Shown: positions 22,786 through 43,678 of the stretch, one piece after another
Position numbering within the stretch: position 1 is the first letter of the stretch
How the letters are laid out: each line of letters starts with the position of its first letter
Virus record (IMG/VR): IMGVR_UViG_3300021335_000006
Span: 62,001 to 126,000 of that record
DNA: 64,000 bases
From: a virus
Reading direction: 5' to 3' (one strand)
Made by a program: the position numbers and the translations under genes
The notes under the pieces: generated by a model
What the model saw: only the letters and a program-made list of their open reading frames with translations
Told to the model about the DNA's origin: nothing
The model's database searches: none

Positions 22786-23012
22786 GTAAAAAGTATATTC
22801 ATGTAAATCAGCATAAAATTCGTGCAAACAAAAAGCATGGAACTGATGAGCCTGTGATCACAATCAAAGAAGGCCGAAGTAACACATATTGTCATGAAGT
22901 CAAAATTCATGGTGAATCGGTAGTGCGATACGGAGGAAGCGACAAGCCTATTCTTTCGTGTGGTGCTCGTGTTGTTATTGAGACTGAAGCTGACATTGAG
23001 ATTATTAGATGA
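22782..23012 (+). CDS. Small protein between gp47 and gp46, unknown
   Basis: 76 residues, starting ATGA-overlapped with gp47 and ending ATGA-overlapped with gp46. A basic N-terminus (KKYIHVNQHKIRANKKHG) is followed by beta-rich sequence (VKIHGESVVRY, ARVVIETEADIEII). The same position is often occupied by a small gene in marine T4-like phages. It may modulate the gp46/47 complex; no motif shows how. Confidence 0.65.
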   Translation: MSKKYIHVNQHKIRANKKHGTDEPVITIKEGRSNTYCHEVKIHGESVVRYGGSDKPILSCGARVVIETEADIEIIR

Positions 23013-24718
23013 TAGTATTCAAAACCGTTAGATGGAAGAATTTTCTATCTACAGGGAATGTATGGACGGAAGTCCAACTCAACAAGAATAAATCTACTCT
23101 TGTTGTGGGTGAGAACGGAGCGGGTAAGTCTACAATGCTAGACGCCATCTGCTTTGCTCTTTATGGCAAACCCTTTAGAAAGATCAACAAGCCTCAGTTG
23201 ATGAACAGCATCAACAAAAAGGGACTTGAGACCGAGATTGAATTTACTAACAAGGGTAAAACATATCTTGTTCGTCGTGGTATCAAGCCAGCGATCTTTG
23301 AAATTTACTGTGATGGAAAGCTACTTAATCAAGACGCTGCAGCCAGAGATTATCAAGCGTATCTTGAAGATACGATTCTGAAGCTCAGTTACAAGTCTTT
23401 TGGACAGGTCGTTGTACTTGGATCTTCTACGTTTATTCCTTTCATGCAACTAAGTGCAAAAGATCGACGTGAGGTCATTGAGGATCTTCTTGATATTCAA
23501 ATCTTCACTACGATGAACACGTTACTCAAAGAACATGTTTCTACAAACAAGAGTGGTATTGATGAAAACAAGTATCAGATTTCACTTGTAGAGAACAAGA
23601 TTGACTCCGCAAAAGATCACAACGAGTCTATTCGCAAGTTGCATGAAAATAAAATTGACGATCTAAAGGAAAAGATCAAAGAACAAGTGTCGCAGGTTGA
23701 GGAACAGCGGGAACTAGCCGATACAATCGATGTTGAGATACAGTCACTTCTAGGATCAATATCTGACAAGGATAGCATTAAGAAAAAGCTAAAGAATGCT
23801 CAAAACATTGATCAAGATCTAAAAAACAAGTTACGGACGTTGGTGAAAGATATCTCTTTCTATGAGAATCATGATGAATGTCCTACTTGTCAGCAAGACA
23901 TTGATTCAGACTTTAAAGAAAGTCATGTCGGTGTGCAAAATAAGAAGCGTATTGAACTCGAAAATGGCTTAGATTCTTTACAAGAAAAGTTAGACGAACT
24001 CAACAAGCGTATCGATGAGATATCAGATATTGAAGATGATATTAATAAAAAGCATTTGTTAATGAGAGAACATGTTGCGAATCAAAAATTTGCAATGAAC
24101 TCGCTAAAAGGAATAAAAAATGATTTGGAGTCAGCAGAAAAAGAGGCTGAAGAAATTGACACTACGACTATCGAAGCCATGCAGGACGAACTCAATGAAA
24201 AGATTGCAGAACAACAGGAGCTAATGGACAAGAGAGAAGTCTTGGCAATCGTTAGTACAATGCTCAAGGATGGTGGCATTAAGACAAGGATTATCAAGCA
24301 GTATGTTCCAATCATGAACAAACTGATAAATAAGTACCTTGCTGCGATGGACTTTTTTGTTCAGTTTGAACTTGATGAAAGCTTTAACGAAACAATTAAG
24401 AGTCGATTCCGTGACGAGTTTTCTTACGCTTCTTTTTCTGAGGGTGAAAAACTTAGAATTGATCTGTCTTTGATGTTTACTTGGAGAGCGGTGTCTAAAT
24501 TGAGAAACTCAGTAAGTACGAATCTACTAGTTATGGATGAGATCATGGATTCATCGCTGGATAGCTCTGGAACAGATGAATTCCTAAAGATCATTAATGA
24601 GTTGACAGCAGACTCTAATGTGTTTATAATTAGCCACAAGAGTGAACAACTTTATGAAAAATTTGAAAACACCCTTCGCTTTGAGAAGGTCAAGAACTTT
24701 AGTAGGTTAGTAGCATGA
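23009..24718 (+). CDS. 46: Recombination endonuclease subunit gp46 (SbcC/Rad50 family)
   Basis: 569 residues. Walker A VVGENGAGKSTML near the N-terminus, two long coiled-coil arms around a zinc-hook CPTC motif (in HDECPTCQQDID, middle of the protein), the ABC signature SFSEGEKLRIDLSLM, and Walker B LLVMDEIMDSSLD with the D-loop. It pairs with gp47. The stop overlaps the following methyltransferase start (ATGA), which ties the accessory genes 24715-27167 to the core recombination operon. Confidence 0.96.
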   Translation: MIVFKTVRWKNFLSTGNVWTEVQLNKNKSTLVVGENGAGKSTMLDAICFALYGKPFRKINKPQLMNSINKKGLETEIEFTNKGKTYLVRRGIKPAIFEIYCDGKLLNQDAAARDYQAYLEDTILKLSYKSFGQVVVLGSSTFIPFMQLSAKDRREVIEDLLDIQIFTTMNTLLKEHVSTNKSGIDENKYQISLVENKIDSAKDHNESIRKLHENKIDDLKEKIKEQVSQVEEQRELADTIDVEIQSLLGSISDKDSIKKKLKNAQNIDQDLKNKLRTLVKDISFYENHDECPTCQQDIDSDFKESHVGVQNKKRIELENGLDSLQEKLDELNKRIDEISDIEDDINKKHLLMREHVANQKFAMNSLKGIKNDLESAEKEAEEIDTTTIEAMQDELNEKIAEQQELMDKREVLAIVSTMLKDGGIKTRIIKQYVPIMNKLINKYLAAMDFFVQFELDESFNETIKSRFRDEFSYASFSEGEKLRIDLSLMFTWRAVSKLRNSVSTNLLVMDEIMDSSLDSSGTDEFLKIINELTADSNVFIISHKSEQLYEKFENTLRFEKVKNFSRLVA

Positions 24719-25932
24719 ATGAATACAAGCCATATACAGTCGAGGATGTAATCAATGCGTCTAACGAAAATAGATTTAGTGTCATTAGTTGTTTTGCTGG
24801 CGGCGGTGGGAGTAGCACTGGATATCGTCTCGCTGGTGGAAAAGTTCTTTTAATCAACGAGTTTGTTGAAGAAGCGATTGCGTCATACAAGCAAAACTAT
24901 ACTGACACGAAAATCCTAGTTGATGATATTAAGAAGTATACTGGAGAAGATTTTCTTTCTCTTGCAAATATTAAAAAGGGTGAGCTTGATATCCTAGATG
25001 GATCGCCTCCTTGTTCTGCGTTTTCTGTTTCGGGTAAGCGTGAGAAAGGCTGGGCTGGTTACGTAAAAGACACACGCAAGTCTTACTTCGATGAGAATGG
25101 AGACATTGTTCACGAAGGTGAGATAGTCGTACAGGATGGAGTAAAGAAATACTCAGACAACAAGGTTCAAGAAGGTATTGAAGATCTGTTTTTAGAGTTT
25201 GTTCGGATTGCAAAAGATATTCAGCCAAAAGTGATCATCGCTGAGAACGTTAAGGGAATCACTATGGGCGAAGCAAAAGGTAAGCTTGTTGAGTTTATCA
25301 ATGCATTTGAAGAAATTGGATACGAGGTTACGTATCAAGTGATGAATGCGGCTGATTATGGCACAGCACAGAATCGTGAGCGCACCATCTTTGTTTGTAT
25401 TCGACAAGATGTATTTGATTCAATTGATATGAATGTGCTAACGATGAATCGAGTGTTTCCAGAGAGAACCTCTGATAAGATTCCTATGGAAAGCGCACTA
25501 TCTGGTATTGAAAATGATCCAGAAGAGATCCAAATGTTGCTCGACTACGTACAAAGAACCTATCAGAAAAAGTTTATCGAGAACTTACCATTTCGACCAC
25601 ATAAGACACTGAACCCAAGTCAGCCTGAGTTCGCTGATTGGAATCCAACAGGATCGTGTTTTAATATGAAACGGCCTTCTCCCTATCATCCTTGTCCAAC
25701 ACTAACTCAGTTAGGTCAACAGATGACTACTTCCGGAGTGTTTCACTATGATTATAATCGTAAGTTTACGATACCAGAACTCAAGAGATTGATGGGATTG
25801 CCCGAGGACTATCAACTGACGGGAACCTTCAATCAGAAAGCGGAGCGAATTGGTCGAATGGTTGCTCCTAAGATGATGGCTGAACTTGCAAAGTCCGTCT
25901 ATGAAAATGTGATAAAGCCTTACAATGCTTAG
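24715..25932 (+). CDS. DNA cytosine-C5 methyltransferase family protein with altered motif X (candidate carboxymethyltransferase)
   Basis: 405 residues. C5-cytosine methyltransferase motifs are all present: motif I CFAGGGGSSTGYRLAGG (about 26-42), motif IV DGSPPCSAFS with catalytic Cys100, motif VI IIAENVKG (Glu177), motif VIII AQNRERTIF (219-226), motif IX PCPTLTQLG and motif X RIGRMVAPKMM. In ordinary enzymes motif X reads GN(A/S)V; here Asn is replaced by Arg381. That residue lies in the cofactor pocket. As I recall, changing it to a basic residue in M.MpeI lets the enzyme use carboxy-SAM. With a CmoA homologue two genes downstream, the likely product is 5-carboxymethylcytosine rather than 5-methylcytosine; this is inference. 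The gene overlaps gp46 by 4 bp and the next gene by 8 bp. Confidence 0.9.
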   Translation: MNEYKPYTVEDVINASNENRFSVISCFAGGGGSSTGYRLAGGKVLLINEFVEEAIASYKQNYTDTKILVDDIKKYTGEDFLSLANIKKGELDILDGSPPCSAFSVSGKREKGWAGYVKDTRKSYFDENGDIVHEGEIVVQDGVKKYSDNKVQEGIEDLFLEFVRIAKDIQPKVIIAENVKGITMGEAKGKLVEFINAFEEIGYEVTYQVMNAADYGTAQNRERTIFVCIRQDVFDSIDMNVLTMNRVFPERTSDKIPMESALSGIENDPEEIQMLLDYVQRTYQKKFIENLPFRPHKTLNPSQPEFADWNPTGSCFNMKRPSPYHPCPTLTQLGQQMTTSGVFHYDYNRKFTIPELKRLMGLPEDYQLTGTFNQKAERIGRMVAPKMMAELAKSVYENVIKPYNA

Positions 25933-26467
25933 TCAACGAATACGAGAGCATAATGGCGAAAACTGCTATGATGATTCTTATCAGAGAGACGCATTAGTAA
26001 ATCTGATTCACACAGATAATGAATTTCGAGAGTACATAAAAGCGCAGTTTAATATCACGGATGAAGCAAACACTAAGATATGCAAAGACCCGCTTGGCGA
26101 TTACAAAGTAGATCTCGGCGTGAAGCAAAATGGTGAGTTGATCGGTCTGATAGAAGTCGATTACTATATCAAGTGGGATCCCGACTGGCCTGAGAACTAT
26201 CGATGGTGTCACGCACTCGCAAGAAAGATTAAGTACTGGAAAGAAGAGGGACTACCCTACATAGGTTGTACACTTAACAAGCAAGGTGATAAAGCGCTCG
26301 TGAGTACAGATGAAATGCAAAGAAAGTATATGTGGACAATGAAGCGAAAGAAAGTTTATCTCAATAATGAATGGATAGACGATAAGTTTATAGAGATACC
26401 CTTACGAGTAGCAAAGAAGTTTGGTAACTGGACAGATGATGAACTGAGGAGAGTGAACAATGCCTGA
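25925..26467 (+). CDS. Unknown protein between the cytosine methyltransferase and CmoA homologue; possible PD-(D/E)xK-like fold
   Basis: 180 residues, overlapping both neighbours by 8 bp, so it is translated in a coupled series. A segment DYKVDLGVKQNGELIGLIEV followed by DYYIKW resembles the core of restriction-endonuclease-like folds: Asp63, a turn, then Glu77-Val-Asp79 with Lys83 nearby. The usual E-x-K is E-x-D here, so activity is uncertain. Aromatic-rich segments follow (HALARKIKYWKEEGLPYIG). It could be a nuclease paired with the DNA modification, an accessory to base modification, or an unrelated protein. I do not recognise the family. Confidence 0.6.
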   Translation: MLSQRIREHNGENCYDDSYQRDALVNLIHTDNEFREYIKAQFNITDEANTKICKDPLGDYKVDLGVKQNGELIGLIEVDYYIKWDPDWPENYRWCHALARKIKYWKEEGLPYIGCTLNKQGDKALVSTDEMQRKYMWTMKRKKVYLNNEWIDDKFIEIPLRVAKKFGNWTDDELRRVNNA

Positions 26468-27167
26468 TTTTACCTTTGCACATAGAGACGAAGGATTCGA
26501 TGATCATATCGACAAATCTATTCGTGGCTATAGTGTTTTACATGATGATATAGTGAATCTTAGTAGATACTTTGTTGAAGACGATACAAACGTAATTGAT
26601 CTTGGTTGTTCAACAGGCAAGACTATTCATGCGATGATGAGACAAAACAACGAATTTGCTCCCAACGCAACATACGTGGGAATTGAGTATGCTGATGGAT
26701 TTATTCCTGCTCTCGACGAACGTGAAAAGCAAATGCGTGAAGAGTTTGGTGGTGTCGAAGGAAAGGTTGAGTTTCATATTGGCGACATTCGCAACTATGA
26801 TTTTGTGAATGCAAATCTAATCACTTCGATCTTCACCCTACAATTCATGCCCCCCACATCTCGTCGTGATGTACTCAAGAAGATTTACAATTCACTGAAC
26901 AAGAATGGTGCGTTTATCTTTGCTGAGAAAACGGTTGCTCAAGATCCAAGACTACAAGAAATGATGACGTTTACATATTACGATTACAAGCGGGAAAACT
27001 TCTCAGACAAAGACATTTTGGACAAAGAACAAACTCTTCGAAATATGTTGAAGCCAATGACATGGAAAGAAATACAATCTGCTCTCGCTACGGCGGGATT
27101 TGGGTTTGACAAAATTCAACCGTTCTGGCAGAATCATTTATTTGTCGGAGCTATTGCCATCAAGTGA
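26460..27167 (+). CDS. cmoA: CmoA-family SAM enzyme (candidate carboxy-SAM synthase)
   Basis: 235 residues, close to bacterial CmoA (247). Family landmarks: FDDHIDKSIRGYS near the N-terminus (CmoA: ...RSVPGYS), motif I VIDLGCSTGKT (45-55), FTLQFMPP (125-132), FAEKT (154-158), then FTYYDYKRENFSDKDI and the C-terminal AGFGFDKIQPFWQNHLFVGA. Bacterial CmoA makes S-adenosyl-S-carboxymethyl-homocysteine from SAM and prephenate for tRNA wobble-uridine modification by CmoB; no CmoB is visible here. The Arg of the bacterial QKRSMLEN helix (Arg199) aligns with Glu190, but Arg194 one helical turn later may replace it, by ungapped alignment from memory. Its overlap with the DNA methyltransferase operon suggests it supplies that enzyme. 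Confidence 0.85.
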   Translation: MPDFTFAHRDEGFDDHIDKSIRGYSVLHDDIVNLSRYFVEDDTNVIDLGCSTGKTIHAMMRQNNEFAPNATYVGIEYADGFIPALDEREKQMREEFGGVEGKVEFHIGDIRNYDFVNANLITSIFTLQFMPPTSRRDVLKKIYNSLNKNGAFIFAEKTVAQDPRLQEMMTFTYYDYKRENFSDKDILDKEQTLRNMLKPMTWKEIQSALATAGFGFDKIQPFWQNHLFVGAIAIK

Positions 27168-27182: not shown

Positions 27183-27215
27183 CTCTTTTAAATCTTGAAA
27201 AAAGGATTATATCTT

Positions 27216-27866
27216 ATGCAATTTAGTGACAATACAATTTCAGTACTTAAAAATTTCTCTCAGATCAATCCCAGTATTATGTTTCGATCTGGAAGTGTCT
27301 TGAGAACTATCTCGCCCCAGAAGACAGTCATGGCTGCAGCCGAAATCGACGAATCATTCGAGAAGTCAGTCGGCGTATACAATCTCGGTCGTTTTCTGGC
27401 AACCCTTTCCTTGTTTGATGAGCCGGAGATTGCACTTGAGGAAACTCAGTTTGTCATCGGTGATGCGAAGAGTACTGTTAAGTATACGTACACTTCAGAG
27501 AACATGATTGTTTCTCCACCCGATAAGGATATTAATGTTCCTGATATTGTTGCTGACATCAACATCACTTGGGAAGAAATCAAGAAGGTTCGAGACGCTG
27601 CAGCTGTCCTTGGACTTCCTGAGATTTCTTTCTCTAGTTCTGGTCGAGGTGTCTTACTTTCAGCCGTCGATAGCAAAAACTCTACAGCGGATACTTTCAG
27701 CATTATCTCCGCACCCGACGAAACGTTTGAGCCATTTGATATGATTATCAAAACAGACTATCTCAAACTGCTGGAGCAAGACTACCAGGTAGCCCTTTCG
27801 ACCAAGGGAATGGCACACTTCCGTTCTAATGGAGTCAACTACTGGATCGCAATCGAATCTCGGTAG
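27216..27866 (+). CDS. 45: Sliding clamp gp45
   Basis: 216 residues from the ATG at 27216, which has AAAAGGA at good spacing; a TTG at 27195 would add seven residues but lies before the ribosome site. The opening MQFSDNTISVLKNFSQINPS, VYNLGRFLATLSLF and the end AHFRSNGVNYWIAIESR match T4-like clamps (T4 gp45 is 228). The trimeric ring tethers polymerase gp43 and also activates late transcription with gp55. In most relatives it follows gp46 directly; here three accessory genes intervene. Confidence 0.95.
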   Translation: MQFSDNTISVLKNFSQINPSIMFRSGSVLRTISPQKTVMAAAEIDESFEKSVGVYNLGRFLATLSLFDEPEIALEETQFVIGDAKSTVKYTYTSENMIVSPPDKDINVPDIVADINITWEEIKKVRDAAAVLGLPEISFSSSGRGVLLSAVDSKNSTADTFSIISAPDETFEPFDMIIKTDYLKLLEQDYQVALSTKGMAHFRSNGVNYWIAIESR

Positions 27867-42961: not shown

Positions 42962-43678
42962 ATGAGCGCTGCGTCTGATAGATTCGAAAAAATGATAGCA
43001 GAATCTGCAAACTCTATTTCTGGCATAAGAGCTAGTCGGCCTACTGTGGGCACTCAGTACTCAGACGTATTGCTACAAAAGGGGGTCACAAAGACTTGGC
43101 TTGAAGTCAAGATGAATCACACCGACAATCTATCTAATCCTAGAGTATTCTATAAAAATGGAAAGTGGGATACTACTTACACTACCCCCGCTGCGAAAGA
43201 AGCAGTTGATATTCTTAACGATGATCCTAAGACAAAGAAGTTTCTTAAAGATTTGTCTAAGTTTACTGGTATACCCTTAAAACAAATAAAGATACCTACT
43301 ACAAAAGGCGGACTAAAAGAAGAAGGCGCTGTTCCTCTTCATATAATGAAAGCATACTTTGCACAGCCTGGAATCAATCGCTATATAGCAGAGATGAAAA
43401 ACTATGATATGGCGTCTTTAATTACAAAGCATTACACTGTAGGTAAAGCTGAGCCTGCATATTATATGCAAGCCGCAGATGATTTTTATCGGATATCGAG
43501 TAAAAATCCATTTAAAGTGCCTAGTGCTGTTCCCTTGCTAAAAGGTAGCGGTGACTTTAAAGTAAGAATTGCAACTCGTTCGCAGTTTTACGAAGTTCAA
43601 GCGGAATTAAAAATTACGTCAATGCCTAGCAGTAAATACTCGTTAGCGCCTGACTCAAAGAAAAAGAATCCTTTTTAA
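42962..43678 (+). CDS. Late protein with PD-(D/E)xK nuclease-like motif
   Basis: 238 residues, ATG behind AAGGGAT. Near the N-terminus TQYSDVLLQKGVTKTWLEVK, then MNHTDNLSNPRVFY, has an Asp followed 13 residues later by L-E-V-K, the signature spacing of PD-(D/E)xK nucleases, and conserved Asn/Arg/Tyr residues around it. The rest is helical and basic, ending in a Lys/Pro tail. Expressed from a late promoter together with capsid-targeted proteins, it may be packaged in the head or act in DNA processing at packaging. The nuclease assignment is inference. Confidence 0.5.
   Translation: MSAASDRFEKMIAESANSISGIRASRPTVGTQYSDVLLQKGVTKTWLEVKMNHTDNLSNPRVFYKNGKWDTTYTTPAAKEAVDILNDDPKTKKFLKDLSKFTGIPLKQIKIPTTKGGLKEEGAVPLHIMKAYFAQPGINRYIAEMKNYDMASLITKHYTVGKAEPAYYMQAADDFYRISSKNPFKVPSAVPLLKGSGDFKVRIATRSQFYEVQAELKITSMPSSKYSLAPDSKKKNPF

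Follow-up and report, generated by a model that had tools for sequence, protein, structure and literature searches.

Phage systems for DNA carboxymethylation

The CmoX/CmoA system of Synechococcus phage S-B43, published in December 2025, writes 5-carboxymethylcytosine (5cxmC) (PMC12783734). In this system, CmoA is an active synthase of carboxy-S-adenosylmethionine (carboxy-SAM or Cx-SAM), and CmoX (SpCmoX) moves the carboxymethyl group from this donor to the cytosine in a GC motif. The wild-type enzyme rejects S-adenosylmethionine (SAM) and uses Cx-SAM exclusively. Its Arg350 contacts the Cx-SAM carboxylate, and the R350N variant is dead. The modification blocks HhaI, and the virion DNA of S-B43 bears a glycine-ligated derivative that is the product of CmoY. 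The partners of CmoX named in the same paper are CmoA, the ligase, and ParB. An engineered carboxymethyltransferase, M.MpeI N374K, is also cited there. Here we describe a related locus in a window of 64,000 nucleotides that corresponds to bases 62001-126000 of virus record IMGVR_UViG_3300021335_000006 (total 130,810 bases). From its similarity to the S-B43 system, we conclude that, very probably, the CmoA homologue of this phage makes carboxy-SAM and its CmoX homologue writes 5cxmC. As CmoA and CmoX are already known, the new part is a family of nuclease-fold proteins, encoded by a gene between the two, that is tied to CmoX and CmoA.

Three plus-strand open reading frames (ORFs) sit between gp46 and gp45. 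The gp46 and cmoX genes share the 4 bp ATGA, in which the gp46 stop codon lies on the cmoX start codon. The cmoX and middle genes share the 8 bp ATGCTTAG, and the middle gene and cmoA share the 8 bp ATGCCTGA. By these overlaps, gp46 and the genes for the C5-cytosine methyltransferase, the 180-amino-acid middle protein, and the CmoA homologue form one operon. The original prediction, made from the DNA letters of the window, had described this arrangement exactly, and its naming of a C5-cytosine methyltransferase and a CmoA homologue is borne out by matches to PF00145, PDB entry 8yf3, and TIGR00740. The features of the locus are as follows.

23009-24718, plus strand: gp46-like recombination/host-DNA-degradation nuclease subunit, upstream neighbour (phrog_77, SbcC-like, E=8e-180)
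24715-25932, plus strand: cmoX homologue, predicted DNA cytosine-C5 carboxymethyltransferase, 405 amino acids (PF00145, PDB 8yf3, conserved residues)
25003-25014, plus strand: SPPC catalytic motif with predicted nucleophile Cys100, equivalent to SpCmoX Cys98 (alignment)
25855-25857, plus strand: Arg381 codon, equivalent to SpCmoX Arg350 and to Asn304 in M.HhaI (alignment; role from PMC12783734)
25925-26467, plus strand: CmoX/CmoA-associated protein with a predicted PD-(D/E)XK nuclease fold, 180 amino acids (homologue context, AlphaFold2 model, Foldseek, alignment)
26460-27167, plus strand: cmoA homologue, predicted carboxy-SAM synthase, 235 amino acids (TIGR00740; phrog_4752, E=3e-63; 53.2% identity to S-B43 CmoA)
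27195-27866, plus strand: gp45-like sliding clamp, downstream neighbour that marks the end of the cassette (PF09116, E=1e-9; phrog_223, E=2e-65)

The CmoX homologue

The METHYLTRANSFERASE encoded by the first ORF, of 405 amino acids, is a C5 methylase by its match to PF00145 (E=1.8e-52). Its best match among PDB sequences, by far, is SpCmoX (8yf3, E=1.5e-110), and M.HaeIII is next (2e-22). Identity to SpCmoX is 47-50% (49.9% over aligned columns), and the window protein carries an insert of about 20 residues after the SPPC motif relative to that enzyme. The residues that contact Cx-SAM in SpCmoX (F25, E47, F48, and D69) are present as F27, E49, F50, and D71, and SPPC at residues 97-100 matches S95-C98. 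Arg381 aligns with SpCmoX Arg350. These four cofactor contacts, the SPPC motif, and the arginine are each invariant in all 92 aligned CmoX sequences.

At the position of Arg381, M.HaeIII and ordinary phage C5-methyltransferases carry asparagine, so that the basic residue reported in place of an expected asparagine by the original prediction is indeed there. As a control, we read this position in other phage C5-methyltransferases, for which the alignment of the more distant enzymes is approximate. Asparagine was found in five enzymes from Fusobacterium, Bacillus, E. coli P2-like, Anabaena, and Klebsiella phages, which are phages of genera without CmoA among the matches listed. Arginine was found in four phages that encode CmoA (Yersinia and Erwinia phages, TurkishDelight, and PaBG). 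Methionine is present in the FpV9-2.1 enzyme, again by approximate alignment.

Three other C5-methyltransferases were recorded at this position. The record of Moraxella phage Mcat8 (L091, KR093632) holds a CmoX-like enzyme with the arginine motif and no CmoA match, and this enzyme may rely on CmoA supplied by the host. The enzyme of Methylophilales phage Melnitz-3 (L092) has leucine and is encoded near a RimK-like ATP-grasp gene; this locus is possibly another cytosine hypermodification system. In a staphylococcal SPbeta-like phage (KT429160, L102:3947-5646), the enzyme gene adjoins cmoA and the residue is glycine, not arginine, which may reflect either an alternative way of using carboxy-SAM or a misalignment.

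The CmoA homologue

The product of the third ORF matches TIGR00740 with E=1.4e-38 and 132.9 bits, and is 53.2% identical to S-B43 CmoA. Its residues Y24, D47, G49, D109, and E156 correspond to the contact or catalytic residues Y39, D62, G64, D117, and E164 of the E. coli enzyme, while the counterpart of E. coli Asn132 is isoleucine, a replacement shared by most of the phage enzymes. For E. coli CmoA in this alignment, residues 1-16 are those we take that protein to have, and residues from 17 onward were taken from the PDB alignment, with a numbering that fits Arg199 and Asp117 as given in PMC3663124.

CmoX loci among viral contigs

A scan of viral contigs yielded 80 CmoX loci, and 82 loci were fetched, including two repeats of the window locus; many are near-duplicates, and the counts that follow are thus not independent. 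The original prediction had proposed a search for other genomes in which a C5-methyltransferase with the basic residue neighbours cmoA, and such genomes were found. The cmoA gene is present beside or near cmoX in 77 of the 82 loci, which argues that the pairing is not due to chance. The two genes directly adjoin in 58 of the 74 loci having both, with overlaps mostly of 4 or 8 bp. A PF00733 protein of 263-270 amino acids, the CmoY equivalent, is encoded in 67 of the 82.

These data bear on the possibility that the window enzyme is an ordinary SAM-dependent methyltransferase producing 5-methylcytosine (5mC), which lies by chance beside a CmoA that feeds the modification of host tRNAs to uridine 5-oxyacetic acid (cmo5U). 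Modification of the tRNA wobble position is the classical role of CmoA, and a CmoB from the host could take its product. However, the enzyme carries Arg381 instead of asparagine with conservation in 92 of 92 sequences, wild-type SpCmoX rejects SAM, and the adjacency of cmoX and cmoA recurs. Moreover, no match to the CmoB family (PF08003) was found in the 130.8-kb record, as the original prediction had noted from the window, and no tRNA genes were found in the window. We therefore rejected a role in tRNA modification, and consider this explanation highly improbable.

Two features of other CmoX loci were also seen. Tandem cmoX paralogues occur in L067 and L071-L081, where the copies are about 50-62% identical within a locus and the arginine is kept in every copy aligned; such paralogues may have two target motifs. 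In 12 loci (L005, L008, L009, L012, L017-L019, L024, L026, L040, L042, and L044), a separate protein of 461-507 amino acids carries an HNH domain at its C-terminus, and of these proteins one matches GmrSD_N weakly and a different one NsnA, again weakly.

Predicted end product

No CmoY family match was obtained with a hidden Markov model in the 130.8-kb record of the window virus, and PF00733, which represents asparagine-synthetase-like amide ligases of the CmoY type, has no match in this record or in two sister contigs, one of 143.9 kb and the other of 53.5 kb. Likewise, ligases of the PF00501 (AMP-binding) and PF13535 (ATP-grasp_4) families gave no match in the same record or in the 143.9-kb sister. 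The cultured Synechococcus phage S-CRM01, whose genome is complete (178.6 kb), and the 200.7-kb record G051 also encode CmoX and CmoA and have no PF00733 match. Judged by these gene sets, there is a CmoY-less branch of CmoX/CmoA phages. Because CmoY was not found in the window virus, its modification most likely ends with 5cxmC itself. The original prediction had allowed for 5cxmC or a derivative, and we predict no derivative.

The carboxymethyl group might instead be amidated further by an unrecognized or host ligase, such that virion DNA would be hypermodified rather than carrying 5cxmC. The prevalence of CmoY noted above, including its presence in L116, which also carries the middle gene, would favour such a step. 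We nonetheless judge it quite unlikely, given the lack of matches to the three ligase families in the contigs named and the existence of S-CRM01 and G051. The base composition of the window gives no indication of GC-motif depletion (GC observed/expected 1.06).

A nuclease-fold protein encoded between cmoX and cmoA

The middle ORF gave nothing significant in searches of Pfam, PHROGs, NCBIfam, PADLOC, PDB sequences, or phage genomes by tblastn, and peptide-pattern scans returned the same virus only, or nothing. We then built a DNA pattern from the motif E-V-[DE]-Y..K-W...H...R-K of this gene without reference to genomic context. The pattern matched six stretches, comprising two copies of the window virus and four others that encode clear homologues, which are 48-59% identical and score phmmer E-values from 1e-55 to 5e-74. 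The first impression of an orphan ORF was thus set aside. Within the search space of 2.9 million viral contigs, there are three other close homologue groups, and the gene lies between cmoX and cmoA in every case (L106/L119, L109/L118, and L108/L116). An alignment-based rescan recovered the same homologues and one more, L122, which is 26% identical and comes from a 151-kb record in which CmoX had no match. Purifying selection acts on the gene, as nonsynonymous divergence (pN 0.256) is low relative to synonymous divergence (pS 0.818) between the window and L116.

AlphaFold2 supplied with an alignment of five sequences gave a model with a mean predicted local distance difference test (pLDDT) score of 82.5 and a predicted template modelling (pTM) score of 0.81, whereas the single sequence gave a useless model (pLDDT 40). 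When the former model was compared with the PDB by Foldseek, SPARDA effector nucleases were the top matches (best E 8e-5), and the fusellovirus (SSV) nuclease D212 (2w8m) was recovered with E 5e-4 and TM-scores of 0.49/0.52. Further matches were DpnI, Hjc resolvases, PvuII, HincII, and SwaI. Nearly all of the top matches, including the enzymes listed here, are PD-(D/E)XK enzymes. The protein therefore appears to have a PD-(D/E)XK core fold, and because the TM-scores are modest (about 0.3-0.5), the assignment is to the fold superfamily only. The candidate active-site acids D63, E77, and D79 keep their acidic character across the alignment and map to the hairpin where such residues would be sought, and the basic R100/K101, on the helix that comes next, are invariant. 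The original prediction had called this protein unknown and passed it over, although it proves to be the new part of the locus.

By analogy with T4, we tentatively suggest that the middle protein is a nuclease that acts against unmodified DNA. In T4, phage cytosine is modified, the cytosine-specific endonucleases II and IV (DenA and DenB) start the breakdown of host DNA, and gp46/47 finish it (PMC6071114). Two other functions were weighed. First, the protein might be inactive on unmodified DNA and instead guide CmoX, as an accessory factor that resembles resolvases, reads the modification, or lacks catalytic activity. Its non-canonical acid-x-acid motif, the archaeal Hjc resolvases among the fold matches, and the distant relative L122 are in keeping with this view, which is possible but doubtful, since a working protein is favoured by purifying selection and by the conservation of acidic residues where the strands of the fold should carry them. 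Also, BamHI has a comparable acid-x-acid site.

Second, with the modification unchanged, the middle protein might be a Vsr-like repair endonuclease that nicks the mismatches arising from deamination of 5cxmC. Vsr endonucleases repair T:G mismatches after deamination of 5mC, as for the 5mC made by Dcm (PMC12907096). A fold of the PD-(D/E)XK type is compatible with such a function, the gene is small and overlaps the methyltransferase gene, and PaBG, another CmoX/CmoA phage, has a gene with a Vsr/MutH/HJR-like annotation near its cluster. However, there is no Vsr structure among the best 50 PDB fold matches, most CmoX phages have no middle gene, and a short lytic cycle leaves little time for deamination. 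We thus consider a Vsr-like function unlikely, and an attack on unmodified DNA following the logic of T4 DenB more likely than the repair of deaminated bases.

The PaBG gene mentioned above (L103:821-1324) has a weak TnsA-like match and is located just upstream of a ParB-CmoX-CmoA-asparagine-synthase cluster. In another record (IMGVR_UViG_3300007508_000034), the interval between cmoX and cmoA holds, at L069:7238-7798, a gene for a DenB-like endonuclease IV (phrog_1360, E=1.1e-8).

Several assignments for the middle gene were rejected. It is not a replacement for CmoY, as L116 carries both, and it is not recognized as DenB, having no match to phrog_1360 at E<=10. Although the L069 gene occupies the same slot as the window gene, the two proteins do not align. 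A DenB-type nuclease is also not general in CmoX phages, being found in 1 of 48 records, and the shared slot, taken with the HNH-domain proteins of the 12 loci above, is therefore a pattern of convergence rather than proof. S-B43 is without the middle gene, and a nuclease-fold partner is unmentioned in the paper on its system (PMC12783734; supplementary files aside), in which the words 'nuclease' and 'endonuclease' appear once each in unrelated senses.

Genomic setting

Judged by its core genes, the virus carrying the cassette is a T4-like phage. The markers present are a major head protein, late sigma factor, gp47, gp46, gp45, clamp loader, family-B polymerase, UvsX, and UvsW-like helicase. 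Elsewhere in the window, an ORF of 238 amino acids at 42962-43678 has no Pfam or PHROG match and contains a 'TWLEVKM' stretch that resembles a PD-(D/E)XK motif. This ORF is a possible second candidate nuclease of the genome.

Proposed mechanism

In the model we propose, a T4-like phage carries a three-gene DNA-modification cassette as an insertion that separates gp46 from gp45. CmoA would convert SAM and host prephenate to carboxy-SAM. CmoX would flip the target cytosine out of the helix, Cys100 would attack C6, and Arg381 would hold the carboxylate of carboxy-SAM while the carboxymethyl group is transferred to C5. As in S-B43, the resulting 5cxmC would probably lie in a motif that contains GC, and it should keep restriction enzymes from cutting. 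The PD-(D/E)XK nuclease-fold partner might then cut or nick unmodified DNA of the host or of competitors, with the 5cxmC-bearing phage DNA spared. If so, these genes would constitute a self-contained carboxymethyl restriction-modification module of lytic phages, in which CmoA provides the donor, CmoX the mark, and the nuclease destroys unmarked DNA such as the host chromosome, plasmids, and rival phages. This last proposal is speculative, and we hold it a little less firmly than the suggested nuclease function itself.

Some observations weigh against the model. The biochemical proof comes from S-B43, to which the window proteins are tied by homology. The TIGR00740 score of window CmoA is below the equivalog cut-off of 193.3 bits, such that its identity to the proven S-B43 enzyme supports a CmoA function and not the strict TIGR00740 label. 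In addition, E. coli CmoA Arg199, which makes a salt bridge to the carboxylate (PMC3663124), is replaced by Glu190. Glutamate is present at this position in all 75 aligned phage CmoAs, including the active S-B43 enzyme, and a near-invariant arginine occurs four residues on (R194 in the window; E190 to R194 are encoded at 27027-27041), where E. coli has Glu203. The alignment thus suggests that the charges at the site that binds the carboxylate are exchanged in all or nearly all of the phage enzymes. Because S-B43 CmoA is active with this exchange, the presence of Arg199 says little about whether a phage protein is a CmoA. With regard to the end product, the virus records are linear and of unstated completeness, and a ligase could be missing from them. 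For the middle protein, the gene is lacking in most CmoX loci, and E77-V-D79 forms an acid-x-acid site without the lysine of the canonical (D/E)-x-K motif, so that the protein might have no catalytic activity or might act in repair.

The homology to the S-B43 system and the retention of every tested CmoX cofactor residue nevertheless support the original prediction that this phage makes carboxy-SAM and writes 5cxmC. Its statement that no natural DNA carboxymethyltransferase was known has been out of date since the report of S-B43 CmoX (PMC12783734). With this locus, a recently described system gains an independent natural member, a predicted carboxymethyltransferase from a virus in which CmoY was not found, and some CmoX/CmoA operons are seen to carry a dedicated nuclease-fold gene. 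If it is true that the middle protein is a nuclease that tells 5cxmC from cytosine, it would belong to a phage counterpart of restriction-modification systems that uses an unusual mark, and would offer a tool to detect carboxymethylation or to cut according to it.

Comparison with known systems

The middle protein resembles PD-(D/E)XK nucleases such as the SPARDA effector, D212, DpnI, Hjc, and PvuII/HincII/SwaI in the fold of its AlphaFold2 model, but it has no detectable sequence similarity to them and carries acid-x-acid rather than acid-x-Lys. The proposed likeness to T4 (PMC6071114) is that of a modified phage cytosine combined with a nuclease for plain-cytosine DNA, although 5-hydroxymethylcytosine is made at the nucleotide level in T4 and DenB profiles do not recognize the middle protein. 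S-CRM01 shares CmoX and CmoA without PF00733, but has the order A then X and no nuclease-fold gene. The engineered M.MpeI N374K enzyme likewise has its cofactor-pocket asparagine replaced by a basic residue and targets CG, whereas the window enzyme is natural, uses arginine, and is predicted to have its own supply of carboxy-SAM. Relative to S-B43 (PDB 8YF3), the gene order is X-nuclease-A rather than A-Y-X, CmoY is found in S-B43 and not in the window virus, and the nuclease-fold gene is present in the window only. The two systems are nonetheless alike in that both reside in T4-like myophages, their genes are adjacent and overlapping, and the key residues of CmoX are all kept.

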